Of a stretch of DNA of 23,777 nt, positions 1 to 18,435 are shown in pieces. Under the pieces are notes generated by a model, which was given only the letters and a program-made list of their open reading frames with translations, made no database searches and had not been told where the DNA came from. This DNA is from a virus, in the IMG/VR virus record IMGVR_UViG_3300042369_000123, positions 1 through 23,777 of that record; one strand, written 5' to 3'. The position numbers and the translations under genes are program-made. Within the stretch, counting starts at the first letter, position 1, and the number at the start of each line of letters is the position of its first letter.

Positions 1-1
1 A

Positions 2-202
2 TATGGAAAACCTTATCAAGAAGTAAACGGTGACGGATTAATAGATGAGATTAAAAATTTAGGCGATAAAATAAAAATGAGTCTGGGATTAGATTGGCCT
101 TTTCTTGATGCACAGCAGAGCAAATTTACTTTAGATTTGTATAATGAAACCATGAATCTCAACGACACTTATTTTAAGATGCCGGTGCCTACGAATGTAT
201 GA
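2..202 (+). CDS. C-terminal end of an unknown protein (5' part outside window)
   Basis: An open frame enters at the left edge (codons from position 2) and runs 66 codons to a TGA at 200-202. The visible residues include NGDGLIDEIKNLGDKIKMSL near the start and end in KMPVPTNV. I do not recognise the family. The stop overlaps the next gene's ATG (195-197), so the two are probably co-transcribed and translationally coupled, and this gene likely belongs to the same plus-strand cassette. There is no upstream stop in the visible part of the frame and codon use (AT-rich third positions) is like that of the neighbours. Confidence 0.6.
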   Translation, partial: YGKPYQEVNGDGLIDEIKNLGDKIKMSLGLDWPFLDAQQSKFTLDLYNETMNLNDTYFKMPVPTNV

Positions 203-2504
203 TATTTTTTATGTTTCAGCAAGCAACGGAAATGACAAAGACTGGTCAACAATAAAGTCTAGGTATCCACTTGCTCAAAAATTAACAAACATAAAATCTT
301 ACGAAGAAATTCAATCTAAATCCTTTACAAAAATGTTCTGGGTTATCTGGGACGATATAAATCTTACAGAATTTAATTTATTAGATTATAAAGCCACTAA
401 GTGGGATGACATGTATGTTCACGTTTTTAAAAACGGAGAACACTATGATGGTATTTGTTTGTTTCCTAAATCGTTGACGATTTCTCAGCGTGAATTTCAT
501 CATAGATTTTTTACAGCTAAAAAAGAAATTGATATTGTTGCTAGTATTCCAAAACAATATAAAACATACAGTCCTAATACATTCAACGAATACCAACACA
601 TAACCGACGACATGTTTTGGCTAGTATGGCCAGAAGTTACTGTAACTGACAAATCAATTTTTGACATATATTTTAGTCATCATAATAGTTATGACCGCAG
701 AGAAAATCATGTATTTAAAAATCTCTGCAATAGTGTTGAATCTTATCTCAGCGGAGTAATCCTTTGCAGCAAATATAAACCTTTATCAAATCGAGAGTTT
801 GATAAACAGTATGCTGTAGATAAAAAAGAGCACAACAAAGTTGTCAGCAAATATCAATACCCAGTTTATAAAATTAATTCTTATGCTGATTATTTAGAGA
901 TTATTGACAATGAAAAACAACAAATGTTTTGGTGTCAGTGGCCTAGTATAGAAATTATTGACGATACAATATTTGATTTTTATCTTGATCCTAACAATGG
1001 TGCATTAGATTATGATAGGCAAGAAAATCATGTATTTAAAAATTTATGCAATGATAAAGAATCATATCTAAGCGGAGTTGTTTTATTTTCTAAATCTAAA
1101 ATTATTTCTAAGAAAGAATTTGATAGAAAATATTTAATTGACAAAAAAGAACATACCCGCATAGTTAGTAGGTATAGATATAATCGATACAATATTTCCA
1201 GTTACGAAGAATATAAACAAATTATAGAAACAGAAACTCAACCTTTATTCTGGGGTATCTGGCCCGAAATAGCTGTTACAGATAATTCTGTTTTTGATTT
1301 ATATTTTGATCCCAATGACGGAAAATACGATCAAGATAGAAAAACAAATCATATGTTTAAAAATTTGTGTAACGATAAAGAAACTTATCTTTGTGGATTA
1401 GTATTGTTTTCAACAACACAAGTTATTTCACAGAAAGAATTTAATAGAAGATATTTAATAGATAAAAAAGAACATGCAGAAGTTGTAAGCCGTTACAGAT
1501 ATAATAGATATGTGTTATCGTCATATGACGAGTATACCGACATTGTTAAAAAAGAAACCCAACCACTATTTTGGGGAATCTGGCCCGAAATAGATATTAT
1601 CGACGAATCGATATTTGATTTATATTTTGATCCCAATGACGGAAAATACGAACACGATCGAAAAGAAAATCATACATTTAAACACTTATTCAATGAAAAA
1701 GAAATTTTTGTTAACGGTGTAGTGTTATTGTCTAAAGATAAAATAATTGGTCAAAGAGAATTTAAACACAGATTTTTAATTGAGAAAAAAGAACATGATA
1801 GATTAGTATCTAAACATTCTTTATATGATGTTGTTTTTATTTCTTATAACGAACCCAATGCCGATGAAAACTGTAACAAGTTATTAGAAATGTGTCCAAG
1901 AGCAAAACGTATTCACGGAGTTAAAGGAATTCACCAGGCGCATATACAAGCAGCTAAAATGTGCAATACTGACATGATATGGATCGTTGACGGTGATGCT
2001 ATTGTCGAAAATGATTTTAATTTTAATTTAGTTATGAGTAGTTACGACATAGACTGTGTTCATGTTTGGAAAAGCCGCAATCCTATTAACAATCTAGAAT
2101 ACGGCAACGGAGGTGTTAAGTTATTACCAAGACAATTAACAATATCTGTTGATGTTAATTCGCCCGATATGACCACTAGCATATCGAAAAAATTTAAAGC
2201 TATGAATACTGTGTCTAACACGAATTCATTTAACACAGATGAATTTGCTACATGGAGATCAGCATTTAGAGAATGTTGTAAACTAGCTAGTCGTGTAATC
2301 GAAAGACAATACGAGGAAGAAACTACACATCGTTTAGATGTATGGTGCTCAGTTGGTGTTGATAAACTATTTGGCAAATATGCAATTAAAGGTGCTCAGG
2401 CAGGTAGAGAATACGGCGAAACTAACAAAAACAATCCAGAGGCCCTTAAGAAAATTAATGACTTTGATTGGTTAAAGGAACAGTTCAGTGGAATACAATC
2501 GTAA
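195..2504 (+). CDS. Six-module glycosyltransferase-like (GT-A type) repeat protein
   Basis: 769 residues. The protein is a tandem array of related modules starting near residues 1, 121, 222, 329, 436 and 544; the middle ones repeat every 107 residues. Each module has a hydrophobic strand followed by a WxxWPE-like segment (for example FWGIWPE), then HxFKNL and a basic segment like DKKEH. The last module (from residue 544) starts YDVVFISYNEP and carries WIVDGDAIV, with Asp599 and Asp601 forming a DxD-type motif typical of the metal/nucleotide-sugar site of GT-A glycosyltransferases. In the five earlier modules the same place reads WDD, WPE or WPS, so they are probably inactive copies that could act in binding or spacing. 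It overlaps the previous gene by 8 bases and the next (GTG start) by 17, so it is part of an operon. The glycosyltransferase call is inference from the last module only; sugar and acceptor are unknown. No signal peptide or membrane segment is visible. Confidence 0.6.
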   Translation: MYDIFYVSASNGNDKDWSTIKSRYPLAQKLTNIKSYEEIQSKSFTKMFWVIWDDINLTEFNLLDYKATKWDDMYVHVFKNGEHYDGICLFPKSLTISQREFHHRFFTAKKEIDIVASIPKQYKTYSPNTFNEYQHITDDMFWLVWPEVTVTDKSIFDIYFSHHNSYDRRENHVFKNLCNSVESYLSGVILCSKYKPLSNREFDKQYAVDKKEHNKVVSKYQYPVYKINSYADYLEIIDNEKQQMFWCQWPSIEIIDDTIFDFYLDPNNGALDYDRQENHVFKNLCNDKESYLSGVVLFSKSKIISKKEFDRKYLIDKKEHTRIVSRYRYNRYNISSYEEYKQIIETETQPLFWGIWPEIAVTDNSVFDLYFDPNDGKYDQDRKTNHMFKNLCNDKETYLCGLVLFSTTQVISQKEFNRRYLIDKKEHAEVVSRYRYNRYVLSSYDEYTDIVKKETQPLFWGIWPEIDIIDESIFDLYFDPNDGKYEHDRKENHTFKHLFNEKEIFVNGVVLLSKDKIIGQREFKHRFLIEKKEHDRLVSKHSLYDVVFISYNEPNADENCNKLLEMCPRAKRIHGVKGIHQAHIQAAKMCNTDMIWIVDGDAIVENDFNFNLVMSSYDIDCVHVWKSRNPINNLEYGNGGVKLLPRQLTISVDVNSPDMTTSISKKFKAMNTVSNTNSFNTDEFATWRSAFRECCKLASRVIERQYEEETTHRLDVWCSVGVDKLFGKYAIKGAQAGREYGETNKNNPEALKKINDFDWLKEQFSGIQS
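555..1823 (+). repeat. Tandem 107-codon (321-bp) repeats inside the modular gene
   Basis: Units begin at 555, 858, 1179 and 1500; the last three are 321, 321 and 324 bases long. Units starting at 1179 and 1500 are the closest: a 38-base stretch at 1293-1330 is repeated exactly at 1614-1651, offset by 321 bases. The other units are conserved mainly at protein level. This points to growth by unequal recombination, with the last duplication or conversion being recent. The first (195-554) and last (from 1824) modules are more diverged and flank the array. Confidence 0.85.
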
Positions 2505-3921
2505 TATAAAAGGCAACGAACTTAAAGAGATTAACGGTAGATATGAATCTCGATATCTTGCTGATGCTGACTACGTGTATAAAGAACTAAACAAAGTTAG
2601 TCCGAGCTTTTGTCTTGCTAAATGGTATAATGTTAGTCTACACATTCCTACGGGAAAAACACATAGTTGTTATCATCCTAGGACACATCAAGTTCCTTTA
2701 GAAGAAGTTCGAATTGATGTTAGTGCATTACATAATACAAAATATAAAAAAGAACAACGCAAATTAATGTTAGCTGGAGAACGTCCTAAAGAATGTGAAT
2801 TTTGTTGGCAGATAGAAGATAGTGGTACGCAGTTAAGTGATCGTGCATATCGAAGTAAAGATGTTTACGAACACGGTTTAATAGAAGAAGCACAGTTAGT
2901 AGAAAATCCTAATCCACGCTACGTTGAAGTAAATTTTAATCAAGCCTGTAATTTTAAATGTAGTTATTGCAGCCCTCATCTAAGTACAGCATGGCACAAC
3001 GATATTCAACATAACGGTGCGTTTATTTTAAAAGATCGTTGGCACAATGATATTAATTGGATGAAGAGTCTTAACATAGATAACGGGCCAAACAATCCTT
3101 ACTTGCTAGCGTTCTGGGAATGGTTGCCACAGATATATCCAACACTACATACATTCCGTATGACTGGCGGTGAGCCATTGATGGATAAGAACACGTTCCG
3201 TATGTTTGACTATGTTAAAGAACATCCTAAAGAAGATCTGCATCTAAGTATTACTAGTAACTGTTGTCCGCCGGGTGATCAGTGGGCTAAATTTATGACT
3301 AGTCTTAAAGAGATTACAGATGTAGATGCAATTGATCATTTTATGTTGTATTGTAGTTTAGACTCTTGGGGTAATCAAGCAGAATATATTCGCAACGGTA
3401 TGGATTTTAATCTACTGTATAATAATGTATGTGATTATTTGCAAAATAGTGATAAACACAGTTTAACATTTATTATAACTTTTACCGCATTAAGTTATAC
3501 AGGATTTTATTCTTACATAGAAAATATTTTAAAACTTAGAAAACAATATAACAAAGGACGTCAATTAGTTTGGTTTGATGTTCCACAGTTATTAGATCCT
3601 GATTTTTTAAATCCTAAATTATTACCAGAAATGGTTAGTGAATTAGAACGCACTATAGAATTTATGAAATACAATCCTGAAACACGCTGGAACGAATTTA
3701 AAGGATTTAGTGATTTTGAAATTAGTAAGGTTCAGCGTTTAATTGATTGGATTAAATCGGATACAGGTTTTAATCGTGAGCTGGCGATGGAAAATTTTTA
3801 TTTGTTCTTTAGCCAGCATGATGCACGTAGAGATACAAATTTTTTAAATACTTTTCCAGAGTTAGAAAATTTCTGGAAAGAATGCGAGGTAAAATGCAAG
3901 AAAGCAATACACAAGCAATGA
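2488..3921 (+). CDS. Radical SAM protein with N-terminal twitch/SPASM-like domain (copy 1)
   Basis: 477 residues. The radical SAM core carries a CX3CX2C motif (Cys154, Cys158, Cys161, in ACNFKCSYCSP), which would bind the 4Fe-4S cluster that cleaves S-adenosylmethionine, and a TGGEP motif (about 226-230). Ahead of the core lies a cysteine set (Cys42, Cys61, Cys103, Cys106, the last two in CEFCW) that resembles a twitch/SPASM auxiliary cluster domain, here placed N-terminally. The start is GTG at 2488, supported by AAGGA at 2475-2479; it lies inside the end of the glycosyltransferase-like gene. The protein is clearly a paralogue of the gene at 4588 (both have ALHNTK-KKEQRK, then CxxCW). Substrate unknown; the family includes peptide- and sugar-modifying enzymes. 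The C-terminal ~150 residues are unassigned. Confidence 0.85.
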   Translation: MEYNRNIKGNELKEINGRYESRYLADADYVYKELNKVSPSFCLAKWYNVSLHIPTGKTHSCYHPRTHQVPLEEVRIDVSALHNTKYKKEQRKLMLAGERPKECEFCWQIEDSGTQLSDRAYRSKDVYEHGLIEEAQLVENPNPRYVEVNFNQACNFKCSYCSPHLSTAWHNDIQHNGAFILKDRWHNDINWMKSLNIDNGPNNPYLLAFWEWLPQIYPTLHTFRMTGGEPLMDKNTFRMFDYVKEHPKEDLHLSITSNCCPPGDQWAKFMTSLKEITDVDAIDHFMLYCSLDSWGNQAEYIRNGMDFNLLYNNVCDYLQNSDKHSLTFIITFTALSYTGFYSYIENILKLRKQYNKGRQLVWFDVPQLLDPDFLNPKLLPEMVSELERTIEFMKYNPETRWNEFKGFSDFEISKVQRLIDWIKSDTGFNRELAMENFYLFFSQHDARRDTNFLNTFPELENFWKECEVKCKKAIHKQ

Positions 3922-4598
3922 CGATTTTCATATACGGTGATAGTTTTAGCATGTCTAGTGAAGTGAGATGCACTTCGTGGATTGATCAATTACATGGAAA
4001 ACATCAACTAATAAATCGATCAATTGCAGGTGCAAGCAATCATTATATATTTTTAAGATTCATGGAAGACTTAGACCGTATAACACCTGACGATTTAGTT
4101 GTTTTTTGTTGGTCTGAGAATCAAAGATATTATCAGAAAGATTCTAAGAAGACACAAGAAATTCACCAGTTGTATCATAAACACTTTTATAATCAACGTC
4201 TTCTTGAAATGCAGTCTGATATGTATTTGGATAAGATCGAAGCGGTTGTTAAAGAACGAAAGATCCGCATGTTGTTTTTCTGGGCTTTCCCTTCCGGATA
4301 CGGTGATTCGAGCAATTGGGTATCTACTAAATTTGTATCCGAGGATAGCTTAGTTTATTCGCACACATTTGAAAACGAAGTTAGGCCAGCTCTGATATAT
4401 TTCTCTAGAATAGAAATACCAAAAAAATATTTAAACACAGAAGAAAAACTGCTTGAGTTTGCCTCTAAAGATATGAGACCTAATCATATGGCTAACCAAA
4501 AATTGCACGACGAACTATTTAAAATAGTAGATGATGTTTTTCATCATAGACTAGCAGGTCAAATTAATTTAAAAAACAGGTTACATAATGAGTCATAA
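3918..4598 (+). CDS. SGNH/GDSL hydrolase-like protein (copy 1)
   Basis: 226 residues from the chosen start. It opens MTIFIYGDSFSMS, with GDS as block I of SGNH hydrolases (the serine being the nucleophile), then AGASN (block II, Gly/Asn) and WSEN (block III-like), and ends with a PNHMANQKLH segment resembling the block V His region. SGNH enzymes are esterases or acetyl-transfer/deacetylation enzymes, often acting on sugars. I chose ATG 3918 because it overlaps the previous stop as ATGA and sits right before the first strand; in-frame ATGs at 3882 and 3894 are possible, and 3894 has GAGG four bases upstream. It sits between two paralogous radical SAM genes and overlaps the second by 11 bases, suggesting a shared pathway. 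Substrate unknown. Confidence 0.7.
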   Translation: MTIFIYGDSFSMSSEVRCTSWIDQLHGKHQLINRSIAGASNHYIFLRFMEDLDRITPDDLVVFCWSENQRYYQKDSKKTQEIHQLYHKHFYNQRLLEMQSDMYLDKIEAVVKERKIRMLFFWAFPSGYGDSSNWVSTKFVSEDSLVYSHTFENEVRPALIYFSRIEIPKKYLNTEEKLLEFASKDMRPNHMANQKLHDELFKIVDDVFHHRLAGQINLKNRLHNES

Positions 4599-5946
4599 AT
4601 TACAATATATTAAAAACGTAAGAGATAGATTAAACAAAGTCGGTACGGGATTCTGTGCAATGAAGTGGTTGCACCAAACTCTGTATCTACACACCGGTGA
4701 TAATCACAGTTGCTATCATCCGCGCCCACATCATATTGGTTTAGATGAAATTGCAGCAGATCCTAGTGCATTACACAATACAAAATGGAAAAAAGAACAG
4801 CGTAAAACCATGTTAGAAGGCGGTCGCCCTAACGAATGCCAATATTGTTGGAATATTGAAGATCTACCAGGCGAGCATATCAGTGACAGAATGATACATA
4901 GTTCCAGTGATTTCAGCGAACCACTGATTGAAAAACTAGCAGAATTACCTTGGGATGCTCCGGTTAATCCTCGTTACTTAGAAGTGAGTTTTGGTAACGG
5001 ATGTAATTATCGTTGCGGTTATTGCTGCCCACAAGCAAGCACCATGTGGACAGAAGAAATCAAGAAGCATGGCAATTACGATCTAACCTATAATCAGTAT
5101 GGCATTGAGTTTATGACCAACGGAACATACTACGGTCCTAAAGACGAAAATCCCTACATTGAAGCATTCTGGAAATGGTGGCCAAGTTTAAAAAATGACT
5201 TACATACTCTGCGTATTACTGGCGGCGAACCTCTAATGAATCCAGGGGCTATGCAGTTTTTTGATTTGCTAGAAACAGAACCAAGTCCTCATTTAGAAAT
5301 TACATTAAACAGTAATCTAGGTGTAACCTTTGATCGTGTTGACAGACTTATTCAAAGAGTAACTAGTCTTGTTCGTCAAAAGAAGATCCGTAAATTTAGT
5401 TTCTTTACAAGCATTGATAGTTGGGGCGAGCAAGCAGAATATATGCGTACAGGACTTAAATGTGATCACTGGGAACGCAATATGATAGAAGTAATCAAGG
5501 CAGGTGCTACTGTAAATTTGATGTGTACCTATAATGTCTTGTGCGTTACTAACTTTCAACAACTATTAGAAAAGGTAATCGAATGGCGCGAGAAGTTTGG
5601 ATTTGAGTCAGTGTCTTTTGATACACCGTACTTGAAAGAACCACCACATTGGATGATTAACATTCTCACAGATGATTTTATAGCACATCAAGAACGTCAA
5701 TTACAATTTATTGTAGACAATAAAAAATGGTTCACCGACGTCGAATATGAAAAAATGCTTCGTGTTACAGACTATATGAAAGAGAATCCGGTAAGCAAAG
5801 AAAAGATTCATGCTGGCAGAAGAGACTTTTATAGTTTTTTTAAAGAAAATGACAAACGTCTAGGTACAGATTTACTAAAGACATTTCCAGAATACACAGA
5901 ATTTTATAATCTGTGCAAACAAATTTACGAAAATTATGACAAATAA
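4588..5946 (+). CDS. Radical SAM protein with N-terminal twitch/SPASM-like domain (copy 2)
   Basis: 452 residues. Core motif CX3CX2C at Cys139, Cys143, Cys146 (GCNYRCGYCCP), followed by ITGGEPLM. The N-terminal auxiliary set is Cys23, Cys42, Cys84 and Cys87 (CQYCW). Order, spacing and many segments match the gene at 2488 (FC-KW near the start, SCYHPR, ALHNTK, then the core), so the pair arose by duplication, with an SGNH gene between them. Both also share a C-terminal segment reading YSFFKENDKR or similar and TFPE. The start overlaps the SGNH gene by 11 bases and its stop overlaps the next radical SAM gene by 11. Cofactor role is known from the family; substrate is not visible. Confidence 0.85.
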   Translation: MSHKLQYIKNVRDRLNKVGTGFCAMKWLHQTLYLHTGDNHSCYHPRPHHIGLDEIAADPSALHNTKWKKEQRKTMLEGGRPNECQYCWNIEDLPGEHISDRMIHSSSDFSEPLIEKLAELPWDAPVNPRYLEVSFGNGCNYRCGYCCPQASTMWTEEIKKHGNYDLTYNQYGIEFMTNGTYYGPKDENPYIEAFWKWWPSLKNDLHTLRITGGEPLMNPGAMQFFDLLETEPSPHLEITLNSNLGVTFDRVDRLIQRVTSLVRQKKIRKFSFFTSIDSWGEQAEYMRTGLKCDHWERNMIEVIKAGATVNLMCTYNVLCVTNFQQLLEKVIEWREKFGFESVSFDTPYLKEPPHWMINILTDDFIAHQERQLQFIVDNKKWFTDVEYEKMLRVTDYMKENPVSKEKIHAGRRDFYSFFKENDKRLGTDLLKTFPEYTEFYNLCKQIYENYDK

Positions 5947-7138
5947 ATCCACTTACTGTGTGAATCCATACATGAATCTAAGTATTCATCCTAAAGGCAT
6001 AGTTAAAACATGCTGCATGAGTACTCGAGAATTGGTTACTGACTCAGGGAAGACTACCATTAATAATGCTAGTATTTTGGAGTTTTGGAATAGTAAAGAT
6101 CGTCAACAAATGATTAGCAATCTTAATAACGGGGTTAAAATACCGGAATGCACATTTTGCTGGCAAGAAGAGGAAGCCGGCAAGGAAAGCAAACGAATTA
6201 GAGACAATAAAACGTATGCAAGTATTATTACTGATAGTGACATGTTACCAGTAGTTGTAGACCTAAGTATGGGAAATCTATGCAATATAAAATGTAGGAT
6301 ATGTAGCCCAACACACTCTACTCCTTGGATGATTGAAGAAGCTAGTATACATTTTCCAAATAATAAACAAGCATATTTAAAACAACCGAGGTGGCAAACT
6401 GTTAAAGATAGTTTTGATTACGAAAATAAATTTCTGTGGGATGATATTACTGCATTATTGCCCAATGTAACTAAATTTGATTTTGCCGGAGGCGAACCTT
6501 TTTATATCGAAAAACACTGGAGTATTGTAAACAAATGCGTTGAGGAAGGGTGGAGTAAAAAACAACACATTCATTATAACACTAATGGCACTATCTACCC
6601 AGAGAAATATATGTCATTGCTAGAAGAGTTTAGACTTGTGGATATACAAATCAGCAGTGATGGTGTCGGTAAGAAATTTGAATATTGCCGTCATCCAGCT
6701 GTTTGGGAAGAAGTAGAAGAAAATATTGATAAGTTTATTTCTGCAAAAAATAATAGCAAAACTGAATGGTTGCTATCTGCTTGTATTTCTGTTTCAGCAT
6801 TTAATGTATATGATTTTTTTGAAACATTTGAGCATTATGCCAGCAAGGGCATCGGTATATATGTTAATATGGTGCACGATCATCATAGTATCAAAGTGTT
6901 GCCTTGTGAATTAAAACAATCAATAATTAATAGACTCAATGCATCTGAATCTAAATATCTGCCACAACAGTGGAACAATGATAGAAATATGGTTATACAA
7001 TACCTATCTAACACAGAATTTTTTGAATCAGACTGGATTAATTTTTGGGCAGAACTCGAAAAGCGAGATACAATAAGAAAAGAATCTTTCAAAGAGATCT
7101 TTCCTGAATATTTCAACGAAATTAAAAAATACTTATAG
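5936..7138 (+). CDS. Radical SAM protein with N-terminal SPASM-like domain (copy 3)
   Basis: 400 residues. The N-terminus reads YCVNPYMNLSIHPKG..KTCC, then EFWNSKD and CTFCW: Cys8, Cys26/27, Cys72, Cys75. This looks like a SPASM/twitch domain, which normally sits C-terminal of the radical SAM core. The core follows with LCNIKCRICSP (Cys116, Cys120, Cys123) and AGGEPFY. The last residues (ESFKEIFPEYFNEIKKYL) resemble the ends of the two preceding paralogues (TFPE). It overlaps the upstream gene by 11 bases, with no clear Shine-Dalgarno, so it may depend on translational coupling. Substrate unknown. Confidence 0.85.
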   Translation: MTNKSTYCVNPYMNLSIHPKGIVKTCCMSTRELVTDSGKTTINNASILEFWNSKDRQQMISNLNNGVKIPECTFCWQEEEAGKESKRIRDNKTYASIITDSDMLPVVVDLSMGNLCNIKCRICSPTHSTPWMIEEASIHFPNNKQAYLKQPRWQTVKDSFDYENKFLWDDITALLPNVTKFDFAGGEPFYIEKHWSIVNKCVEEGWSKKQHIHYNTNGTIYPEKYMSLLEEFRLVDIQISSDGVGKKFEYCRHPAVWEEVEENIDKFISAKNNSKTEWLLSACISVSAFNVYDFFETFEHYASKGIGIYVNMVHDHHSIKVLPCELKQSIINRLNASESKYLPQQWNNDRNMVIQYLSNTEFFESDWINFWAELEKRDTIRKESFKEIFPEYFNEIKKYL

Positions 7139-7146
7139 GATATAAT

Positions 7147-8373
7147 ATGTGGAATGATGCAGTAACACAGGTTCATTGGGAACCAACAGACAAATGTAAC
7201 AGTGGATGTTCTATGTGTCCAAGATATGATTCAAAAGGTTTTGAGATAAGCACATTAGAAAATAAAGAATGGACTTTAGAAAGTTTTAAAAAAGCATGGT
7301 CTGTAAAATTTTTATCGCAATTGCAAAAGATACTTGCTTGTGGTAACTTTGGTGATCCTTGCGCCTGTAGAGAATTTGTAGACATATATGAATACTGCAG
7401 AGAAATCAATCCAGGCATGGGGCTTGCCTGTAACACTAACGGTAGCCTTAGAAATCCAGCATGGTGGAGTCGGTTAGGGGCTGTGATGCGTGAAGATCAA
7501 AATCTAGGTAACTACTGTACGTTTAGTCTAGATGGACTTGAAGACACAAATCATCTTTATCGTCGAAATACCAACTGGAAAAAAATCATGGAAAACGCCA
7601 AAGCATTTATTGATGCTGGCGGTGTTGCTCATTGGGATTTTATTGTATTTGAGCACAATGAACATCAAGTTGAGGAAGCTAGAGAACTAGCACGTTCTAT
7701 GGGCTTTAAGAACTTTAACGTTAAAAGAACTACCCGTTGGGCAAAATACAAAGACGGTGTTGGGTCATATCCTGTTTATTCCAAAGGCATACACTTGTAT
7801 GATCTTAAACAACCCAATGAAGATAAATTCAAACACAACTTTGAAGATTCGCAATACTTCAAGCAGAGCAAATATCAAAGTATCACGCTGAATGATTTTA
7901 AAAATATGGTAGGTATCAAGAATGGGGACATGAGATTTGTAAATGGAAAATGGGAAACTATTGATCTAGATTCACTTAACATAGCGTGCCGCGCAGTCAA
8001 AGATGCTAGAATGCATCAACCGCACAATGAAATATTTGTAAGTGCAGGAGGACATGTTGCTCCTTGTTGTTTTTTAGGTTCCGAGCCTATGATAGATACC
8101 AAAGTTAAAGACCGAGACGAAAATTATATCAGTATGATTAATGCTCAAGGTGGACTACATAGACTTAATATGCATATCAACGATATCTACGACATACTGC
8201 AATTAGATATTTTCCAGAAATGGATTCCCGACACGTGGGATAACGAAAATGGTAATACTTCAATGCGTCCAGCGAAATGCGGACAATGCTGTGGTGTAGA
8301 ATTTAATGGTCTCGATTTTGGAGAACTTGGAAACAAAAAAGATTCATACATTATCAAGGAAAACAATGAATAA
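7147..8373 (+). CDS. Radical SAM/SPASM-type protein with C-terminal cysteines
   Basis: 408 residues. The radical SAM motif is near the N-terminus: CNSGCSMCP (Cys17, Cys21, Cys24). A C-terminal cysteine group (Cys281, Cys307/308, Cys378, Cys381/382; APCCF and CGQCC) looks like a SPASM auxiliary cluster domain in the usual order, unlike the other four radical SAM genes here. The middle holds CGNFGDP in the place where many family members have GGEP, and ACNTNGS. AGGA at 7137-7140 precedes the ATG by six bases. The gene is followed within its last codons by the next start. SPASM proteins often modify peptides, but related ones act on other substrates, so the role is open. Confidence 0.83.
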   Translation: MWNDAVTQVHWEPTDKCNSGCSMCPRYDSKGFEISTLENKEWTLESFKKAWSVKFLSQLQKILACGNFGDPCACREFVDIYEYCREINPGMGLACNTNGSLRNPAWWSRLGAVMREDQNLGNYCTFSLDGLEDTNHLYRRNTNWKKIMENAKAFIDAGGVAHWDFIVFEHNEHQVEEARELARSMGFKNFNVKRTTRWAKYKDGVGSYPVYSKGIHLYDLKQPNEDKFKHNFEDSQYFKQSKYQSITLNDFKNMVGIKNGDMRFVNGKWETIDLDSLNIACRAVKDARMHQPHNEIFVSAGGHVAPCCFLGSEPMIDTKVKDRDENYISMINAQGGLHRLNMHINDIYDILQLDIFQKWIPDTWDNENGNTSMRPAKCGQCCGVEFNGLDFGELGNKKDSYIIKENNE

Positions 8374-9565
8374 TTTATGTGTCTTACCTTTTAATAGCAT
8401 AAGCATAGATGCAGTCGGGCAATTTAGAGCTTGTTGTAGCAGTGGAACCAATGGATTCAAATTATATGCCAAGGATTTAACTCCTGAAGAATTCATTAAT
8501 AATAAAAAAATTGTAGAACTAAGACAGGATTTTTTAAATGGACAAAAGCCTAGTAACTGTGATCGATGCTGGAACATGGAGGCTATCGGGAATCCTAGTT
8601 TTAGACACGTAGCAAATGAAAATCAATCTTATGGAATAAAAAATAACAAGACGATTGAATTTAAAAGTCACATAGGTTTTGAAAATATACAGTATCTTGA
8701 TATTACACTAGGAAATAAATGTAATCTCGCCTGTCGAATGTGCAGTCCTTATAGCAGTTCTTTAGTTGCCAAACAATGGAATATCATTAATAAATCACAG
8801 GGTCACAAGGAAATCATCGAATTTGATAGATCTACCAAAGACAAAATACTTGACACAATCAACAAATCTGTTAACTTAACAGAAATATACATGTTGGGAG
8901 GAGAACCACTGGTATCTGAATTTCACGATGAGATTGTTGAACTGCTCATTGCGAACGGTAGATCAAAAAATTTAATCTTGCATTACAATACAAACCTACA
9001 AATTGATGCTGAACGTAAATTAGAAGTATGGGAAAAATTTAGAAATATAGATTTAAGCATCAGTATAGACGGCCATGGTGATACTTATGAGTATATAAGG
9101 TGGCCTGGAAATTGGGCTAAATTACATAAAAATATAAACCTTGTAATTGATTATTCTAAACAGAATAAGAATATACTACCTGGAATAGCCACCACTGTGC
9201 AAAATTTAAATGTTGATAACTTAGACCAACTTATTGATAGCATGCATGAACTATCAGATAATAAACTCAGCTTTTATTTTATTCCGGTAGTTCAATTCAA
9301 TGAGCTTGACATAACACCCTTGCATGTTTTGGAAGAGTCACACAGCAAATTACAAAAGTATAGAAATACATCGTTGCATCGAGCAGATGAATTATTAAAT
9401 ATGATTAAGGAAGCAATAGATAAATCTAAAAATGTGGACTCTAAAAGGGTGGTCGAATTTTTTAAAATGCAAAAAAACTATGATATGATACGTAATCAAA
9501 ATTTATTCAAAATCAAACCTCATTTTATAGAATACGCAAAACAATTCAAGGTAAACACATGGTAA
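8366..9565 (+). CDS. Radical SAM protein with N-terminal SPASM-like domain (copy 4)
   Basis: 399 residues. N-terminal auxiliary set Cys5, Cys23/24, Cys65, Cys68 (MNNLCVLPFNS, RACCSSG, CDRCW), then core motif KCNLACRMCSP (Cys119, Cys123, Cys126) and LGGEPL. It is closest in layout to the gene at 5936. An upstream in-frame ATG (8306) would add 20 residues, but ATG 8366 has AAGGA at 8356-8360 at good spacing, overlaps the preceding stop region, and puts the first conserved Cys at position 5 as in the sister gene. The next gene's ATG overlaps its TGG-TAA end. Confidence 0.85.
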   Translation: MNNLCVLPFNSISIDAVGQFRACCSSGTNGFKLYAKDLTPEEFINNKKIVELRQDFLNGQKPSNCDRCWNMEAIGNPSFRHVANENQSYGIKNNKTIEFKSHIGFENIQYLDITLGNKCNLACRMCSPYSSSLVAKQWNIINKSQGHKEIIEFDRSTKDKILDTINKSVNLTEIYMLGGEPLVSEFHDEIVELLIANGRSKNLILHYNTNLQIDAERKLEVWEKFRNIDLSISIDGHGDTYEYIRWPGNWAKLHKNINLVIDYSKQNKNILPGIATTVQNLNVDNLDQLIDSMHELSDNKLSFYFIPVVQFNELDITPLHVLEESHSKLQKYRNTSLHRADELLNMIKEAIDKSKNVDSKRVVEFFKMQKNYDMIRNQNLFKIKPHFIEYAKQFKVNTW

Positions 9566-10401
9566 AACTTACTATCAAAGAAAATACATTTAATGTAAAA
9601 AGAATCGTAGCATTCGGTTGCAGTTTTACAGCCGGGACCGAAATACTAGATTATCAATTAAATCCCTATTTTGTAGATTTAAAAAATAAATTAGATGCGT
9701 ATCAGTGGTGGGAAAAACTTAAAAAAGATCCAGATCAGATGAAGCTACAGCTAGAAATTCGAAAACAAGAACCCAACCATTCTTGGCCGGCACATCTAGC
9801 TTCTTACTTGGGTGTGAACTTTATAAATTATGCAAAGCCTGGTAATAGTAATGAACTCATGTGTTGGCAGATAGAACAAAAATTAAATTCGGGAGAAATT
9901 ACCGATGACGATTTAATTTTGGTCGGAACAACCGGAACCCAGCGATCTATGTTTTTCTCTAGTACCTATCCAGAACCTGTGCCGTTTTTACTTTCAAATA
10001 TCGAATCGTACAAAGTCGAACTATCAGAACATATAACAAAATATTTCACAGACGATAGACTCTTGTGGAATTATTATAGAGATTTAAAAGTATTCGAATC
10101 AATAAAACAGAAAATAAATGGCAGATTGTTTGTGATCCCTATGGAACAAATTCGTGAAGAATTATGTCTTTGGCCCAGCACACACGCTTACGGCACATAT
10201 CGGGTAGCGTCACTTGAGAATGCTTTATTTTTTAACAAAATAATAAATCAATTACATAATTCTCAACTATTTGCAACTACAGATTGTTGTTTATACGATT
10301 TTAAAACGGAAAAAACTACATTACCACATGGACATTTAAATGAGGATGCTCATAAATCTTTCGCCGAACAGCTTTACAAAGAGCATGTTATTATCAACTA
10401 A
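9559..10401 (+). CDS. SGNH/GDSL hydrolase-like protein (copy 2)
   Basis: 280 residues. RIVAFGCSFTAG (Gly20-Cys21-Ser22) is block I of the SGNH family; GNSN (95-98) fits block II and GTTGTQR a block III variant. The C-terminal HGHLNEDAH (257-265) resembles block V, but the Asp usually three residues before the catalytic His is not seen, so activity is less certain. A Trp/Tyr-rich insertion lies between blocks I and II. Start ATG 9559 is preceded by AAGGT and overlaps the radical SAM stop by 7 bases. It is the last plus-strand gene, and ends 22 bases before the convergent methyltransferase gene. It shares only family motifs with the copy at 3918, so the two are not a recent duplication. Confidence 0.7.
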   Translation: MVKLTIKENTFNVKRIVAFGCSFTAGTEILDYQLNPYFVDLKNKLDAYQWWEKLKKDPDQMKLQLEIRKQEPNHSWPAHLASYLGVNFINYAKPGNSNELMCWQIEQKLNSGEITDDDLILVGTTGTQRSMFFSSTYPEPVPFLLSNIESYKVELSEHITKYFTDDRLLWNYYRDLKVFESIKQKINGRLFVIPMEQIREELCLWPSTHAYGTYRVASLENALFFNKIINQLHNSQLFATTDCCLYDFKTEKTTLPHGHLNEDAHKSFAEQLYKEHVIIN

Positions 10402-10402
10402 C

Positions 10403-10423
10403 CAGAATAGAGAAATTGTTCTG
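10403..10423. terminator. Short hairpin filling the convergent junction
   Basis: CAGAATA and TGTTCTG form a 7-bp stem (one G-U pair in plus-strand RNA) around a 7-base loop. It occupies almost the whole gap between the two converging stop codons (10399-10401 and 10424-10426). There is no clean run of T after it (CTATAATTT follows), so termination is only a guess from position; in minus-strand RNA the stem is five pairs. Confidence 0.35.
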
Positions 10424-11089
10424 CTATAATTTAATTAATGGATTTGTTATTATTGCACATAGATCAAGTTTCCAGAGTCCGTTGTGTTCGATATTAAAAT
10501 AGACTAATTCTAAATGATGTTCTTTGGCAAATCTGTTGGCACACTTGTTAATATGTTCATACATACAATCGTCGACAAATATAATACCGGGCTTCATGTT
10601 CGCATAACAATATTCTAAGTCAGTTTTTAAAACTTCGTCCTTATGGCTACCATCGAGTATTATACAACTCATTTGAGAAATATCAACATTATGCACTACA
10701 TCTGTAATTAACGTAATATTATCGCACTCTTTTTTATACAATTTTTGAATATGTCTAAAAGATGCGGGCTCTAACATAAGTTCGGGATACTTCGATCGTA
10801 GGTGCATTAAATGATCTGAGAGACCTTTCATTGCGAAGTATTCTTCAAAGTTGCTAGGGTCAACGGTTGTTATTGAATTGCTTGGGAATTCTTTTGCTAG
10901 TATATATGTAGTGCCGCCTGCAAATGTTCCAATTTCTAATATTTGTGTTAACTTATAATCATTGATTGCTTTGATAATAGGTGTTAACTTATTCATGGGC
11001 ATCAACGACATTGGTCGAGATGTTAAAATCTCTATTACTTCTTTTTCTACAGATGAATCATCGACTCTATACATAAGTAAATCTAACAA
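10424..11089 (-). CDS. Class I SAM-dependent methyltransferase
   Basis: 221 residues. ILEIGTFAGGTT (about 50-61) is the glycine-rich SAM-binding motif I of Rossmann-type methyltransferases, TVDPS is the acidic end of strand 2, and CIILDGSHKDEV followed by GIIFVDDC resembles the Methyltransf_24/CmcI-like group, which often methylates sugars or small molecules. Target unknown. The start is unclear: the frame opens with TTG at 11089, and the first ATG is at 11074 (residue 6), neither with a Shine-Dalgarno. An ATG directly after the upstream TAG (11102-11100) would be in frame if one A of the run at 11093-11096 were absent (see findings). It is the last gene of the minus-strand run and faces the radical SAM/SGNH cassette. 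Confidence 0.78.
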   Translation of the reverse strand: MLDLLMYRVDDSSVEKEVIEILTSRPMSLMPMNKLTPIIKAINDYKLTQILEIGTFAGGTTYILAKEFPSNSITTVDPSNFEEYFAMKGLSDHLMHLRSKYPELMLEPASFRHIQKLYKKECDNITLITDVVHNVDISQMSCIILDGSHKDEVLKTDLEYCYANMKPGIIFVDDCMYEHINKCANRFAKEHHLELVYFNIEHNGLWKLDLCAIITNPLIKL

Positions 11090-11102
11090 TGCTTTTAATC
11101 AT

Positions 11103-11408
11103 CTAGAACAATTTATTAGTTTCGCTGGCAATATCAGTTTTCAAGCGGGTCACATCAACTTTAAAATCGATCTTTTTGATTTCATCCTTGTATTCTTGGA
11201 GTGTGTTAAGCAATACGTCAGCGATGCTTTCGGAAGTTTGTTTAGTCAATTCATTTTTTACATCGATTTCCCATACTCTGCCATCTATAAAATCCAGTCG
11301 TACTGAATCCAGATAGGCTACCGGCATGGTATTCATGTAGAGATCTTCAAAAACCTCCGGCCATTCTTTTACAAGATGGCGCGGAGGTTTGAACAAGGGA
11401 TTAGGCAT
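11103..11408 (-). CDS. Small conserved phage protein of unknown function
   Basis: 101 residues, starting MPNPLFKPPRHLVKEWPEVF. It has a charged, probably helical C-terminal half (EYKDEIKKIDFKVDVTRLK) and no cysteine, membrane segment or catalytic motif I can name. Its ATG overlaps the stop of the upstream gene by 8 bases (GATGCCTAA), which fixes the start. The sequence resembles, from memory, small proteins of T4-like marine phages, but I cannot assign a function. Confidence 0.7.
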   Translation of the reverse strand: MPNPLFKPPRHLVKEWPEVFEDLYMNTMPVAYLDSVRLDFIDGRVWEIDVKNELTKQTSESIADVLLNTLQEYKDEIKKIDFKVDVTRLKTDIASETNKLF

Positions 11409-12051
11409 CAGCAGTTTCTTCTACCTTTTTAACTTTTTTAACAGTGGGATCGAGTTCTTCCGCTTCTTTGCGTAATCTTGCTGCTTCTTTATACATAGCA
11501 TCAGCTTGGCTACGATATGATTTTGCTAGATCCTTGTCAGTTAGTACAGCATCGGTTGCGGCCTGCGCTCGTATAGGAGCAGGTATATCTGAATCTACCG
11601 CAGGAATCGTATCATTTACTGTGGCTGCATTTTTAACTTCAGCTTTAGCAGACGGAGCACCTGCTACAAATGTGCATAGATCATCTACGGTGCAGTTTTT
11701 CTGTTCTGCTATCAGCGTGTTAAGATTAGCCAACAGCACAGTATCGTTGGTAGTAGGTGTCATCATTACAGCATCTGTGGCTACTTTAATCAATCTGCCA
11801 TCTGCTTGCATGGCCCGCAACATAGGTCTACCATCCGGGAATGGGCGTATGTGCATGATTTCGCCAAACTCAAATGCATCCTGCGCTTGTTCTGTTTCTA
11901 CCAAAGTCATAATCGAATCATGATATTGATCTGGCAGTTGAGCTACAGGTAATACTAGAGCCATGTTTGACTCTCCGGGCAACGTTCTAAACACTACCAA
12001 TACCTTGGCACCTGTGTTTTGAATTCTACCTATGTGTTTAAGGCTTTTCAT
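11401..12051 (-). CDS. Conserved phage protein with Ala/Lys-rich C-terminal tail
   Basis: 216 residues. The first ~110 residues form a compact domain (KHIGRIQNTGAKVLVVFRTL at the N-terminus, later GRPMLRAMQADGR) and the rest is rich in Ala, Asp and Lys with a predicted helix (YRSQADAMYKEAARLRKEAE) and a basic/acidic end. The start ATG follows the upstream TAA directly, with AAGGA nine bases before. I do not recognise a function; the layout (small folded domain plus charged tail) would suit a nucleic-acid- or protein-binding factor but that is a guess. Confidence 0.7.
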   Translation of the reverse strand: MKSLKHIGRIQNTGAKVLVVFRTLPGESNMALVLPVAQLPDQYHDSIMTLVETEQAQDAFEFGEIMHIRPFPDGRPMLRAMQADGRLIKVATDAVMMTPTTNDTVLLANLNTLIAEQKNCTVDDLCTFVAGAPSAKAEVKNAATVNDTIPAVDSDIPAPIRAQAATDAVLTDKDLAKSYRSQADAMYKEAARLRKEAEELDPTVKKVKKVEETADA

Positions 12052-15004: not shown

Positions 15005-15441
15005 AGATTATCTTTCTTCACTGTTTTAATATCAATTACGCCTGTGTTTACAGGACCGCCGAAATCGCCATCGACTACTACATTGGCACACAGTTCACGG
15101 AACCAACGATCTATAATTTCTTCGTCTTTGTCTCCGTCCTCACCATATCCCTCTTGCTTTAATTTTAACACAAAAAGGTCGTTCCAGTCAAGCTCAAAAA
15201 AGCCATTACGAACATTATCTTTGTTGACATGTGTTTCGATTACGCCTACCCACGGTTCTTTTTTACGTGTTGCACGTTCTTTTGGAGATAATTTGGCCTG
15301 TGCCTCTGCTTCTGTAGCACGTTCGGCAGCTTCAGTGGCTGCTTTGGCTGTTTCAGAGGCTTGTGCTGCAATGCCTATTGATCGTTCTGCTTCTGCTCTG
15401 ATCTTGTCAATACCAAATAATTTTTCAATCCATTTATTCAT
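15001..15441 (-). CDS. Protein with Ala/Glu-rich coiled coil and conserved C-terminal domain
   Basis: 146 residues from ATG 15441. The N-terminal third is a long Ala/Glu/Lys helix (IRAEAERSIGIAAQASETAK onward), then a basic KERATRKKEPWVGVIETHV and an acidic C-terminal domain (FELDWNDLFVLKLKQEGYG, then IIDRWFRELCANVVV). I recall the C-terminal part from T4-like marine phages without known function. Three ATGs are close together (15453, 15444, 15441); GGGGA five bases before 15441 favours that one, while 15444 gives an ATGA overlap with the queE stop. Confidence 0.7.
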   Translation of the reverse strand: MNKWIEKLFGIDKIRAEAERSIGIAAQASETAKAATEAAERATEAEAQAKLSPKERATRKKEPWVGVIETHVNKDNVRNGFFELDWNDLFVLKLKQEGYGEDGDKDEEIIDRWFRELCANVVVDGDFGGPVNTGVIDIKTVKKDNL

Positions 15442-16295
15442 CATGTTCCCCATTCATTTTTAAACAATGGCACCTGCAATCTGTCTGAATATCTCAGTCC
15501 ATGTTTCATTGCCAGTTCTGCTACTCTGCGGTTATTTAGTGTGTATACACTTTCAACCCCGCCCACAGGCATGAGATAAACATTACCAGTGAAACCTTCT
15601 GCACGATAGATATCCACAGCTTCTAGAGCTTCTTCTGCATCACCTTCAGTGGCCACTACTAATTTGAGATATACATGACCAGCTTCTTGATATTCACAGA
15701 CTATGTCTGGGCGTATAGCTTCACTAGGCTGTTCTCCTGAACAACTGAGTTTGGCACTGACCGAGAATGTAACTTCTCTACTGGCAAAAGGAGGATTCTG
15801 TGCCCATTCTTGTAGATATTTTTTAAACTCCGGAGTTAGCTTTTGAGTACCGTTGGTTTCAAAAGTAATTTCTTTAAGACCTGTCATACTCAGATGATTC
15901 AACAGATCCGGATAAGCACGTTGCCAACCTAACAACGGTTCACCGCCAGTGATAACCAAGTGTTCATCTTCCCAACGCTTGTAAGGTAATATTTCCATGA
16001 TGCGTTCTGCAATCGCATCAGTTGTTAGCATGGGCGAAAGATCTTTGAATCTAGGATCCCAGCTGGCATAGCTATCACAACCTGTGCTTACTAATGGTAA
16101 GTCTTGATATTTAAAAAACTTCTTAATATCGGCCGCAATAAAATCACGCTCCTTGCTTTGTTCACCACGTGACATACCAAAGCCGTCACAAGTAAAGTTA
16201 CATCCAAACGTGCGTAAGAACACACTAGGGACACCCATATATCGGCCTTCGCCTTGTATGCTGTAAAAAAGTTCTGCTATTTTTATTTTGCTCAT
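15441..16295 (-). CDS. queE: 7-carboxy-7-deazaguanine synthase (QueE), variant cluster motif
   Basis: 284 residues. QueE is a radical SAM enzyme that turns 6-carboxytetrahydropterin into 7-carboxy-7-deazaguanine, the second-to-last step to preQ0. Visible family marks: AELFYSIQGEG (8-17), VFLRTFGCNFTCDGFGM (25-41), VITGGEPLLGWQ, and FETNGT. The cluster motif is unusual: Cys32 and Cys36 are followed by Gly-Phe where the third Cys should be, and the next candidate is Cys73 in STGCDSYASW, giving CX3CX36C with a ~30-residue insertion. Together with folE (20019) and a possible QueD-like gene (22109) it forms most of the path from GTP to 7-carboxy-7-deazaguanine; QueC is not in the window. The ATG lacks a Shine-Dalgarno. 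Confidence 0.88.
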   Translation of the reverse strand: MSKIKIAELFYSIQGEGRYMGVPSVFLRTFGCNFTCDGFGMSRGEQSKERDFIAADIKKFFKYQDLPLVSTGCDSYASWDPRFKDLSPMLTTDAIAERIMEILPYKRWEDEHLVITGGEPLLGWQRAYPDLLNHLSMTGLKEITFETNGTQKLTPEFKKYLQEWAQNPPFASREVTFSVSAKLSCSGEQPSEAIRPDIVCEYQEAGHVYLKLVVATEGDAEEALEAVDIYRAEGFTGNVYLMPVGGVESVYTLNNRRVAELAMKHGLRYSDRLQVPLFKNEWGT

Positions 16296-17460: not shown

Positions 17461-17996
17461 TTTGTCCACCAATCTTCCCAAGGAAAATCAATCCATACAT
17501 CCTTCTCTGCCTTGTTAACTTCCATGCCAACGAAATCCATCTTAACATTGCACTTGCTGGCGAGATTATCTACTAACACAGCAAATTTAACATTGTTATT
17601 CCACACTTCTTCCCAGGCTGGATCATCTGGAAAGCAACCACTTGGCCAATCTTTCATGATCCAGTTAAGTGTGGTGCCTTGATCGTTGATATCATCTACA
17701 ATTAAAATGTTTTTAAAAGCAGTATCGCTATCAACTGCACGATCCTTGGACAACGGTCCTAGAGCATCTTCAGCCATCCATAAATTACTCTCCGGACCAA
17801 TCTCACTATCTCGTAGACTTACATTGAGAGTATGTAACGGAATATTAAAATATTGACTGATCATAACAGCAGGAATCAATCCCCCTCGAGTAATTCCTAC
17901 AATATAATCGGGCCTCCACGTTCCTATAGCAAGCTCTCTACAAATCTTGCCGACTAGTCCGGTTACTTCATGCTGGTTGATTTTGAGTTTGTTCAT
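17457..17996 (-). CDS. Type I phosphoribosyltransferase (purine salvage-like)
   Basis: 179 residues. ILIVDDINDQGTTL (97-110) is the PRPP-binding motif of type I phosphoribosyltransferases, and IVGITRGGLIPAVMI (32-46) the preceding loop that binds pyrophosphate. The C-terminal segment DVWIDFPWEDWW resembles the FPWE end of xanthine/hypoxanthine-guanine PRTases, suggesting a purine base as substrate. It would make nucleotides from free bases, useful for phage DNA synthesis or for feeding GTP to folE. AAGGA five bases before the ATG; it overlaps the cupin gene by 29 bases. Base specificity cannot be read from the sequence. Confidence 0.85.
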   Translation of the reverse strand: MNKLKINQHEVTGLVGKICRELAIGTWRPDYIVGITRGGLIPAVMISQYFNIPLHTLNVSLRDSEIGPESNLWMAEDALGPLSKDRAVDSDTAFKNILIVDDINDQGTTLNWIMKDWPSGCFPDDPAWEEVWNNNVKFAVLVDNLASKCNVKMDFVGMEVNKAEKDVWIDFPWEDWWTK

Positions 17997-18435
17997 TTCT
18001 ATCCTTGAGATATTGTTCGTGTTGTATCCATTTGTTGTTGACTAAAAATCCCCATTCACGTTTATGCGGGCCAGGCATGAATAGGGTCCAAGCAGTTATT
18101 CCAGGTTGAAGTTCGATGCGATGATAGCTATTAGAACCACAAATACGGAAGTGACCAGGACCCCGCCAATGCTTGGTCTCTCCAATCATTTGGCCATTTT
18201 CGAAATTAGGAGTATATTCATAGTATCCACCTTTTAGTATCAGTGTAGCATAGGGCCACGGATGATCATGAACATCGTCAGGATCACCTTTGAGGAATTT
18301 ATGTAAAAATACGTTGAATGGAAAACGATCTCTTTCTTTCAAGAAGAGATAATACCGTTCGAGATACGGTTCGTTATTAACACGATCATAAATGATACGC
18401 TTGCGGCCCAGTCGTTCAAGCAGTTTCAAAAACAT
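17968..18435 (-). CDS. Cupin-like metal-binding protein
   Basis: 155 residues. DPDDVHDHPWPYATLILKGG (51-70) carries His56 and His58 in the place of the first cupin metal motif, followed by a beta strand and Gly-Gly-Tyr; His105 (NSYHRIEL) fits the second motif. The N-terminus is basic (LLERLGRKR). Cupins include dioxygenases, isomerases and binding proteins; this one resembles the cysteine-dioxygenase-like phage group, but no function can be fixed. AGGAAG precedes the ATG; it overlaps the glycosylase gene by 20 bases. Confidence 0.65.
   Translation of the reverse strand: MFLKLLERLGRKRIIYDRVNNEPYLERYYLFLKERDRFPFNVFLHKFLKGDPDDVHDHPWPYATLILKGGYYEYTPNFENGQMIGETKHWRGPGHFRICGSNSYHRIELQPGITAWTLFMPGPHKREWGFLVNNKWIQHEQYLKDRNEQTQNQPA

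Follow-up and report, generated by a model that had tools for sequence, protein, structure and literature searches.

The present work concerns a cassette of eight genes on the plus strand, spanning positions 195 to 10401 of a 23,777-base viral record (IMG/VR IMGVR_UViG_3300042369_000123, analysed at its full length and called the window below). The cassette codes for a modular glycosyltransferase (GT), five radical S-adenosylmethionine (radical SAM, rSAM) proteins, R1 to R5, and two SGNH-like proteins, S1 and S2. Comparison with its relatives identifies the cassette as the 3′ portion of a tail operon carried by T4-like phages that have not been cultured. Related gene sets are widespread among uncultured phages. 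In this operon, glycosyltransferase genes are followed in a recurring order by one or two N-terminal-twitch rSAM genes of the R1/R2 type. The product of this operon is quite probably a glycan. There appears to be an even chance that the cassette forms the downstream end of a fibre-linked operon, read late, for building and editing glycans, the likeliest target of which would be the fibres of the phage itself.

Conservation of the gene order

Relatives were first collected from the rSAM side. With R2, R1 and an alignment of the R1/R2 type as queries, 213 viral loci were obtained, the window included, which were reduced to 75 at an R1/R2 identity below 90%. A GT gene lies at most three genes upstream in 59 of these non-redundant loci, a gene of the GT-like families F6 or F7 upstream in 48, and one of the families F3 or F5 in 41. 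Genes of the R1 and R2 types are adjacent or one gene apart in 39/75, and at least three rSAMs of the cassette families share an island in 43/75. The R3/R5 type is present in 42 loci, the R4 type in 37, the SGNH-like family in 37, B12-rSAM genes in 12 and a carbamoyltransferase in six. For R2 alone, relatives occurred in 281 viral stretches, of which 80 loci were kept; these fell into 39 groups, in which R1 stands directly before R2 or is separated from it by S1; the mean column identity of R2 over these groups is 83%.

Since these scans began from the rSAMs, co-occurrence was retested from the GT-like gene F6. An earlier note on this DNA had proposed searching for the genes together in other phages and metagenomes, and had named their independent occurrence as the observation that would speak against a shared pathway. 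F6 has at least 586 relatives, and the best 80 of these gave 55 non-redundant loci, 38 of them with at least 5 kb downstream. Among these 38, a cassette-family rSAM occurs within 14 genes of F6 in every locus, as do two GTs within five genes; F7 follows F6 in 37, and in 35 the last GT is immediately succeeded, on its own strand, by a gene of the R1/R2 type. The association is one-sided: cassette-family rSAMs account for 1 of 195 genes upstream of F6 versus 73 of 355 downstream. Three or more rSAMs are seen in only 7/38. The entire variable part of locus L342 is one R1-type gene, and L327 and L356 add one small gene to this, so that the minimal form is GT-GT-one twitch rSAM. In the loci tested, independent occurrence was thus not seen for the GT-rSAM core; it applies in part to some cores that lie away from GT and fibre genes, and to the SGNH-like, R3/R5-type and R4-type genes, each found in about half of the 75 loci. 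Orientation is not strictly fixed: in L236, as in L303, L307 and L309, the rSAM block lies opposite the GT-fibre operon.

A probably late operon downstream of the fibre genes

From position 500 onward, six compared contigs are 100% identical to the window (rounded values per 500-base bin), except at the end of L004, in its last bins. The longest-described of these, L010 (contig G001), has 281,658 bases and a gene for the T4-type capsid protein; the corresponding Gp23 family (PF07068) was detected in four of six larger contigs, the other two of which may be fragments. These near-identical contigs support the assignment of the window to phage DNA. Upstream of the cassette, G001 codes for a baseplate hub, a wedge, a virion structural protein and tail fibres, followed by two F3 genes, F8 (116 amino acids, aa), F6, F7, F10, a single-domain GT and the repeat GT. 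The opposite flank consists of convergent genes, including an exonuclease and QueE. The typical operon of the related loci has the same form: the fibres are followed by a small gene with a motif resembling TATAAATA, a pair of GT-like genes, another small gene and a pair of GTs, after which come one or two rSAMs of the R1/R2 type and a tail that varies. In L065, the gene at positions 3382-4518, upstream of the repeat GT, has a sub-threshold Hint/intein-like domain, at a place where other loci have fibre or GT-like genes.

The earlier description of the cassette as a one-direction, overlapping set of eight genes is borne out by the open reading frames, six of whose seven junctions overlap, the remaining one being a gap of 8 nucleotides (nt); the distances are -17, -40, -11, -11, 8, -68 and -7 nt. 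Throughout the related loci, median junctions from F8 through the rSAMs are -4 to -17 nt, mostly overlapping, while that from the fibre gene to F8 is 58 nt. In L010, the sequence TATAAATA lies 27 nt before F8, the small gene ahead of F6. A pattern resembling the T4 late promoter was found upstream of 21/83 F3/F5 genes and 13/42 F8 genes, and of none of the F6 (0/46), F7 (0/48), F10 (0/44) and GT (0/104) genes. It precedes 3/242 rSAM genes, 2/9 S1-family genes, 50/476 unlabelled genes and 29 of 4,500 random stretches. Unsupervised ranking of 7-mers placed TAAATAA first for F8 (23/41 versus 5/429 F6, F7, GT and rSAM genes); for F3/F5 the top 7-mer was ATAAATA (29/81 versus 4/429). On account of the promoter-like motif and the junction pattern, F8 is most likely the first gene of the GT-rSAM operon, which would be read late, together with the fibres. 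Scans of window positions 1-12000 for sigma-70 promoters and terminators gave numbers close to those of shuffled sequence (69 versus 56.6, standard deviation 8.6, and 5 versus 5.3) and were set aside.

Proteins of the cassette

The first gene (195-2504, +) codes for a GT of 769 aa. It had been described in the earlier note as a GT-A repeat gene, and the repeats are real, yet they consist of five degenerate half-domains in front of one intact catalytic domain. The five tandem copies (aa 47 to about 539; 333-1811, +) are spaced 321 nt apart in the DNA and correspond to the latter half of the GT-A fold unit; where the catalytic domain has VDGDA, they have WP, or WDD in the case of copy 1. The catalytic GT-A domain (1812-2504, +) retains a DGD motif, whose D599 and D601 are invariant in a 22-row alignment of relatives. 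Relatives carry 0 to 6 repeats by a rough motif count that overlooks divergent copies, and the protein is thus a single enzyme bearing a series, variable in length, of copies that look inactive. Its AlphaFold2 model (mean predicted local distance difference test score, pLDDT, 88.6; predicted template modelling score, pTM, 0.57) gave 72 PDB matches at an expectation value (E) of 0.001 or less. The 50 matches listed are led by K4CP and CgT and are mostly GT-A enzymes, including chondroitin polymerase, CgT, WrtF, RmlT and a PBCV-1 capsid GT. A Che8 GT is among the fold matches of the model (E 9.2e-5), and the nearest viral models are two uncharacterised proteins of uncultured phages. By sequence, the GT stayed below the curated Pfam score (Glyco_tranf_2_3, 17.8 versus 27) and had no match in 50,697 records of cultured phages, nor did its profile among PDB chains.

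The claim that five radical SAM proteins stand side by side was confirmed, the CX3CX2C motif being kept in all five. Four of them exceed the curated cut-off (170 bits) of the N-terminal-twitch family NF033640 (N_Twi_rSAM): R1 (2488-3921, +) with 307.5 bits, R2 (4588-5946, +) with 294.7, R3 (5936-7138, +) with 285.5 and R5 (8306-9565, +) with 288.5. R4 (7147-8373, +) reaches only 37.1 bits and is therefore not assigned to this family; it passes the Pfam Radical_SAM cut-off of 29.5 at 40.6, while R1 falls below it at 21.9. In non-redundant alignments (rows above 150 bits and 330 aa), seven cysteines of the rSAM motif and the twitch region are invariant in R1 (49/49 rows) and in R2 (73/73), and eight in the R3/R5 family (68/68). 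R4 has a C-terminal cysteine set of its own, in which C281, C307 and C308 are kept in 39/39 rows and C378 and C382 in 38/39. R1 and R2 are paralogous, with 36% identity, and R3 and R5 share 25%. To our knowledge, no function has been tested for the NF033640 family, and we know of no rSAM enzymes in the glycosylation of mycobacteriophage virions.

An AlphaFold2 model of R2 (pLDDT 81.0) has an rSAM core without a close relative, and the fold searches do not discriminate between sugar, peptide and nucleotide substrates. Sequence searches of PDB chains gave no match for R2 or R4, a marginal one of R5 to SkfB (E 0.044), and a match of the R1/R2 profile to MoaA over about 20 residues. In the 50,697 phage records, R2 had two weak partial matches, R4 four partial ones and R5 matches in 40 Vibrio phage records at an identity of at most 26.2%; the cassette as such was not seen there with GT, S2, R2, R4 and R5 as queries.

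The two proteins that the earlier note had called SGNH, S1 (3882-4598, +) and S2 (9559-10401, +), keep the block I serine, block II glycine and block V histidine expected of such enzymes but not the asparagine of block III. In S1, G19, D20, S21, G50, H202 and H209 are invariant in seven rows, which preserves the GDSF, G and NH elements; in S2, with GCSFT and H..H motifs, G20, S22, G95 and H259 are invariant in 12 rows. At the block III position, S78 and R82 are conserved instead in S1, and R129 with T125 in S2, and the proteins are therefore labelled SGNH-like only. S1 had no Pfam or NCBIfam match; S2 matched DUF6071 and Lipase_GDSL of Pfam below threshold and no NCBIfam model over its cut-off. 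Neither profile matched PDB chains by sequence, and S2 had no match in the phage records. Both proteins may catalyse acyl transfer or hydrolysis. S1 is an optional gene, present in five of the 39 R2-locus groups; L009, despite an R2 that is 98% identical, gave no S1. None of the eight cassette proteins has a membrane-helix-like stretch, and all are predicted to be soluble.

Exchange, selection and the variable region

The genes from R3 to S2 behave as an exchangeable block. Compared with L050, R3-R4-R5-S2 are 83-91% identical, R1-R2 71-78%, and the flanks 71-84% except for one bin at 95%; this contrast indicates that R3-S2 has been exchanged as a unit. Compared with L009, the most similar part is R2 (88-90%). 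The ratio of nonsynonymous to synonymous substitution rates (dN/dS) against L009 is 0.02-0.21 for R1, R2, R3, R4, R5 and S2, where dS exceeds 2, near saturation, for R1, R4 and R5. Against L050 the ratio is 0.06-0.17 for R3, R4, R5 and S2, with dS saturated for R1 and R2. These values are those of purifying selection on R1-R5 and S2.

The contents of the variable region were surveyed in a random 145 of 269 proteins not labelled as R1-R5 types, with 145 of 331 proteins from outside the islands as a control. Variable-region proteins below 120 aa, and opposite-strand ones below 300 aa, were excluded, and the counts refer to the 25 of 45 Pfam families (25 of 34 in the control) that were shown, the others having at most one member. 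The variable region contained ten NAD-dependent sugar epimerases/dehydratases, three UDP-sugar dehydrogenases, four carbamoyltransferases, six B12-binding proteins, nine further rSAMs, six 2-oxoglutarate-Fe(II) oxygenases and two methyltransferases. No sugar epimerase, UDP-sugar dehydrogenase, carbamoyltransferase or B12-binding protein was among the control families shown, which included two rSAMs, one 2-oxoglutarate oxygenase, one methyltransferase and two GT7 proteins. The control includes genes upstream of the rSAM in loci without a GT block, and its two GT7 proteins may therefore be cassette members. Some islands reach ordinary phage genes (PhoH, gp32, lysozyme and UvdE, one each in the sample), and since the L236 cassette is convergent with the GT genes, a few fibre and GT genes of that locus are in the variable-region sample.

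Relation to known phage systems and to bacteria

The earlier note regarded the cassette as the best candidate for an undescribed system, which is only partly right. Modules of five rSAM genes, and rSAM cassettes in GT-rich clusters, have been published (PMC2853527, PMC7029224), and the present cassette is a variation on these; no paper describing the GT-rSAM core itself was found in the open-access literature.

The closest setting is the host recognition cluster (HRC), a hypervariable, GT-rich island with tail fibres in pelagimyophages and cyanomyophages (PMC7029224), where GT8 is the commonest GT, UDP-glucose dehydrogenase and rfaE are among the sugar genes, and cassettes related to radical SAM proteins distinguish two of the phages. 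As in the HRC, the G001 cassette and its GTs come immediately after the genes for baseplate and fibres, and the T4-type capsid is present in four of six contigs. In the available text of that report, however, the rSAM cassettes are mentioned once, without gene order or family, whereas here a GT-GT-twitch-rSAM order recurs. The far side here consists of the convergent genes with the exonuclease and QueE. The HRC lies between VrlC and gp14; the neck gp14 family (PF11649) was found in one of the six contigs, some of which may be fragments.

In the Campylobacter phages CP220 and CPt10, Timms et al. (PMC2853527) reported 11 and 12 rSAM proteins, with an interchangeable module of five rSAM genes and clusters each accompanied by a putative amidinotransferase, and proposed a metabolic benefit rather than a glycan. 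The CP220 record has the rSAM genes gp080, gp081, gp083, gp084 and gp087 in one stretch with an amidinotransferase-like gp086; gp088 and gp089, directly after this module, are noted as nucleotide-diphospho-sugar transferases. The present cassette has an rSAM block and a GT, and no amidinotransferase-like gene. When six CP220 rSAMs were tested, gp080, gp083 and gp084 matched R4 (52-61 bits), gp084 weakly matched R3/R5 (19.5), and none matched R1 or R2. G001 itself has a second group of rSAM genes, some of them of the N-terminal-twitch type (L367 and L368; G001:C1:226000-262000). An epimerase-like gene lies with them, as does an amidinotransferase-like gene that is 29.6% identical to CP220 gp086.

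Radical SAM and carbohydrate enzymes were called unusual features of a related Campylobacter phage (PMC3322345), and rSAM, GT and RmlD genes are listed together in Tasman Sea viruses (PMC7150976). The T4-like environmental virus TARA_ERS488813_N000010 has 12 rSAM genes (PMC5332604) and thus resembles G001 in having many rSAMs in one T4-like genome, although the text available gives no cluster or partners. Mycobacteriophage GTs decorate virion proteins (PMC12619734, citing Freeman 2023). For the 'moraphage' lineage of the same paper, with four core GT orthogroups, no link is claimed: the main text does not contain the word 'radical', and its predicted hosts are mostly Bacteroidota.

Among bacterial genome contigs, the best 80 of at least 91 relatives included 12 clear ones (L147-L158; 34-47% identity), nine of them of Bdellovibrio or Bacteriovorax type, and L151 a phage contig as judged by its genes; the remaining kept rows are weaker and partial. 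In L153, the R1 homologue lies near an ABC-2 permease with its ATPase, two Glycos_transf_1 proteins and a carbamoyltransferase; three other neighbours, from L147 and L150, had no Pfam match. NF033640 matches, over and below the cut-off together, number 13 in the genome of L150, 31 in L147, 22 in L155, 32 in L153 and 8 in L149, while all 14 control genomes had weaker matches, none over the cut-off. Dense chromosomal NF033640 arrays with R4-like genes were observed in Bdellovibrio-type genomes (L369-L373 in G021, G022 and G023; for example G021:C192:22358-54921). GT genes matching the phage GT profile are present in two of three such arrays, and B12-rSAM and amidinotransferase-like genes in one or two of the three. 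For these arrays and the second G001 cluster, 52 proteins were aligned (51 of 71 listed and one from L293), and Asp/Asn beta-hydroxylase domains were observed in five of the 52.

Proposed function and alternatives

A possible course of events can be outlined from the gene content. F6 and F7, together with two GT-A enzymes of which one carries the tandem pseudo-GT repeats, would build a sugar chain. One or two twitch rSAMs of the R1/R2 type would then alter the carbon skeleton of a sugar by oxidation, epimerisation or deoxygenation, using the 5′-deoxyadenosyl radical and an auxiliary Fe-S cluster held by four cysteines. The exchangeable block (R3, R4, R5, S2) may make more edits by radical chemistry and would probably attach an acyl group. 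The tail-fibre protein of the phage would be the likeliest acceptor, and related phages would thus differ in their sugar coat. More tentative, and somewhat short of an even chance, is the broader scheme in which T4-like phages edit their own virion glycans by rSAM enzymes, with swappable blocks providing lineage-specific fibre coats and an enzyme stock shared with Bdellovibrio-type bacteria. If true, such swappable fibre-coat enzymes would be the phage counterpart of O-antigen diversity. The rSAM genes are unexplained auxiliary genes of aquatic phages, for which the GT-rSAM core offers a testable role in glycans, one that would also account for their coming as exchangeable blocks. A large uncharacterised set of twitch rSAMs may act on sugars, and the cultured phage CP220 has a related module.

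Between the two products suggested in the earlier note, a glycan or a peptide, the evidence points to a glycan, through the co-occurrence with F6, the contents of the variable region relative to its control and the export context of the bacterial homologue. Its location is much less certain, the virion having about an even chance. The promoter motif and the operon evidence lean to the virion, and the fibre reading is helped by the adjacent fibre genes, by the promoter-like motif and by the lack of exporters in the membrane.

Several observations weigh against a fibre-linked, glycan-editing operon. Some cores are not next to fibre genes, a DNA ligase lying upstream instead in 7/75 loci, and genes labelled R1 and R2 occur together in only 45/75. 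Of nine contigs picked for having no GT beside the cassette, two have a GT elsewhere and seven, which may be fragments, have none. The F6 scan covers the closest relatives of F6 and not its whole family, which limits the figure of 38/38, and three of these loci (L303, L307 and L309) have the rSAM block inverted. F6, F7 and F3 had no family match, so that their GT and fibre labels are those of motif and position, F6 and F7 being GT-like solely by DxD-type motifs; the F6 profile had no sequence match among PDB chains. The late-promoter pattern is that of T4, although the 7-mer ranking was unsupervised, and among unlabelled genes of at least 120 aa it precedes 7/177 in islands and 10/180 outside. 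None of the cassette rSAMs is close to a characterised sugar rSAM. A Foldseek search of the R2 model against the PDB gave nothing at E of 0.001 or less, AprD4 being the best at 2.3e-3, and VIA-align placed the peptide maturase SkfB at the top (Z 12.2), ahead of BlsE (11.3), MoaA (10.8), anSME (10.8), DesII (9.8) and AprD4 (8.0). The bacterial export context would suit a surface polysaccharide equally well, and for GTs of this kind the authors of the HRC study favour modification of the host O-chain (PMC7029224).

This last point belongs to the main rival, in which the sugar enzymes alter the lipopolysaccharide or capsule of the host and so block superinfection or re-adsorption to debris. It is a distinct possibility, if one well short of an even chance. 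Besides being the published view for GTs in pelagimyophage HRCs, it agrees with the presence of sugar-nucleotide enzymes in the variable region and of a bacterial R1 homologue within a polysaccharide-export cluster. Yet no flippase, polymerase or exporter was among the 25 of 45 variable-region families shown, and a membrane-helix-like stretch was found in 3/269 variable-region proteins. The operon start at F8, with a motif as for the fibre genes, and the fibres directly upstream in G001 also speak for the phage's own fibres rather than the host surface.

Modification of DNA or nucleotides, or synthesis of a viperin-like anti-host nucleotide, would be very unlikely. The window does code for enzymes of early 7-deazaguanine synthesis, a QueE-like rSAM (15441-16295, -; phrog_2076, 6.6e-54) and a GTP cyclohydrolase (20019-20765, -; 7.9e-44), and phage GTs can glycosylate DNA (PMC12619734). 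These two genes, however, form part of another region and are read from the minus strand, the TGT/DpdA family was found in none of four contigs, which may be fragments, and the QueC family in one of the four, just over the cut-off. The viperin model NF038283 (cut-off 180) gave 27.4 bits for R1, 20.8 for R2 and 23.8 for R3, and did not list R4 or R5. Both the viperin-like nucleotide and the 7-deazaguanine modification of DNA were considered and dropped, as was the maturation of a ribosomally synthesised and post-translationally modified peptide.

In the latter case the rSAMs would modify a ribosomal peptide in the manner of SPASM/twitch maturases, for which the SPASM-like cysteine sets and the presence of SkfB, SuiB and anSME among the structural matches to R2 could be cited. 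The partners, however, are GT and sugar-nucleotide enzymes, and the earlier statement that no precursor peptide is visible holds within the cassette, which has neither a precursor gene nor room for one (F8 was untested as a precursor); junctions of at least 90 nt number only 13 of 364 in the related islands. Peptide maturation is accordingly held to be highly improbable. Just as improbable is a collection of unrelated passengers without a shared pathway in a tolerant hypervariable island: the SGNH-like, R3/R5-type and R4-type genes do differ between loci, but the order F6-F7-F10-GT-GT-rSAM is kept in most F6 loci, R3-S2 is swapped as a block, and dN/dS is 0.02-0.21.

Other features of the window

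The window opens within the operon, with the 3′ end of the single-domain GT-A-like glycosyltransferase upstream of the cassette (2-202, +), which is complete in the near-identical contigs (L010:4698-5615). Bases 1-500 are 93% identical to these contigs, while later bins are at 100%, and a recombination edge within the GT genes is possible there. On the far side of the cassette, a tRNA-Glu (TTC) at 18303-18378 (+) lies opposite a minus-strand open reading frame at 17968-18435.

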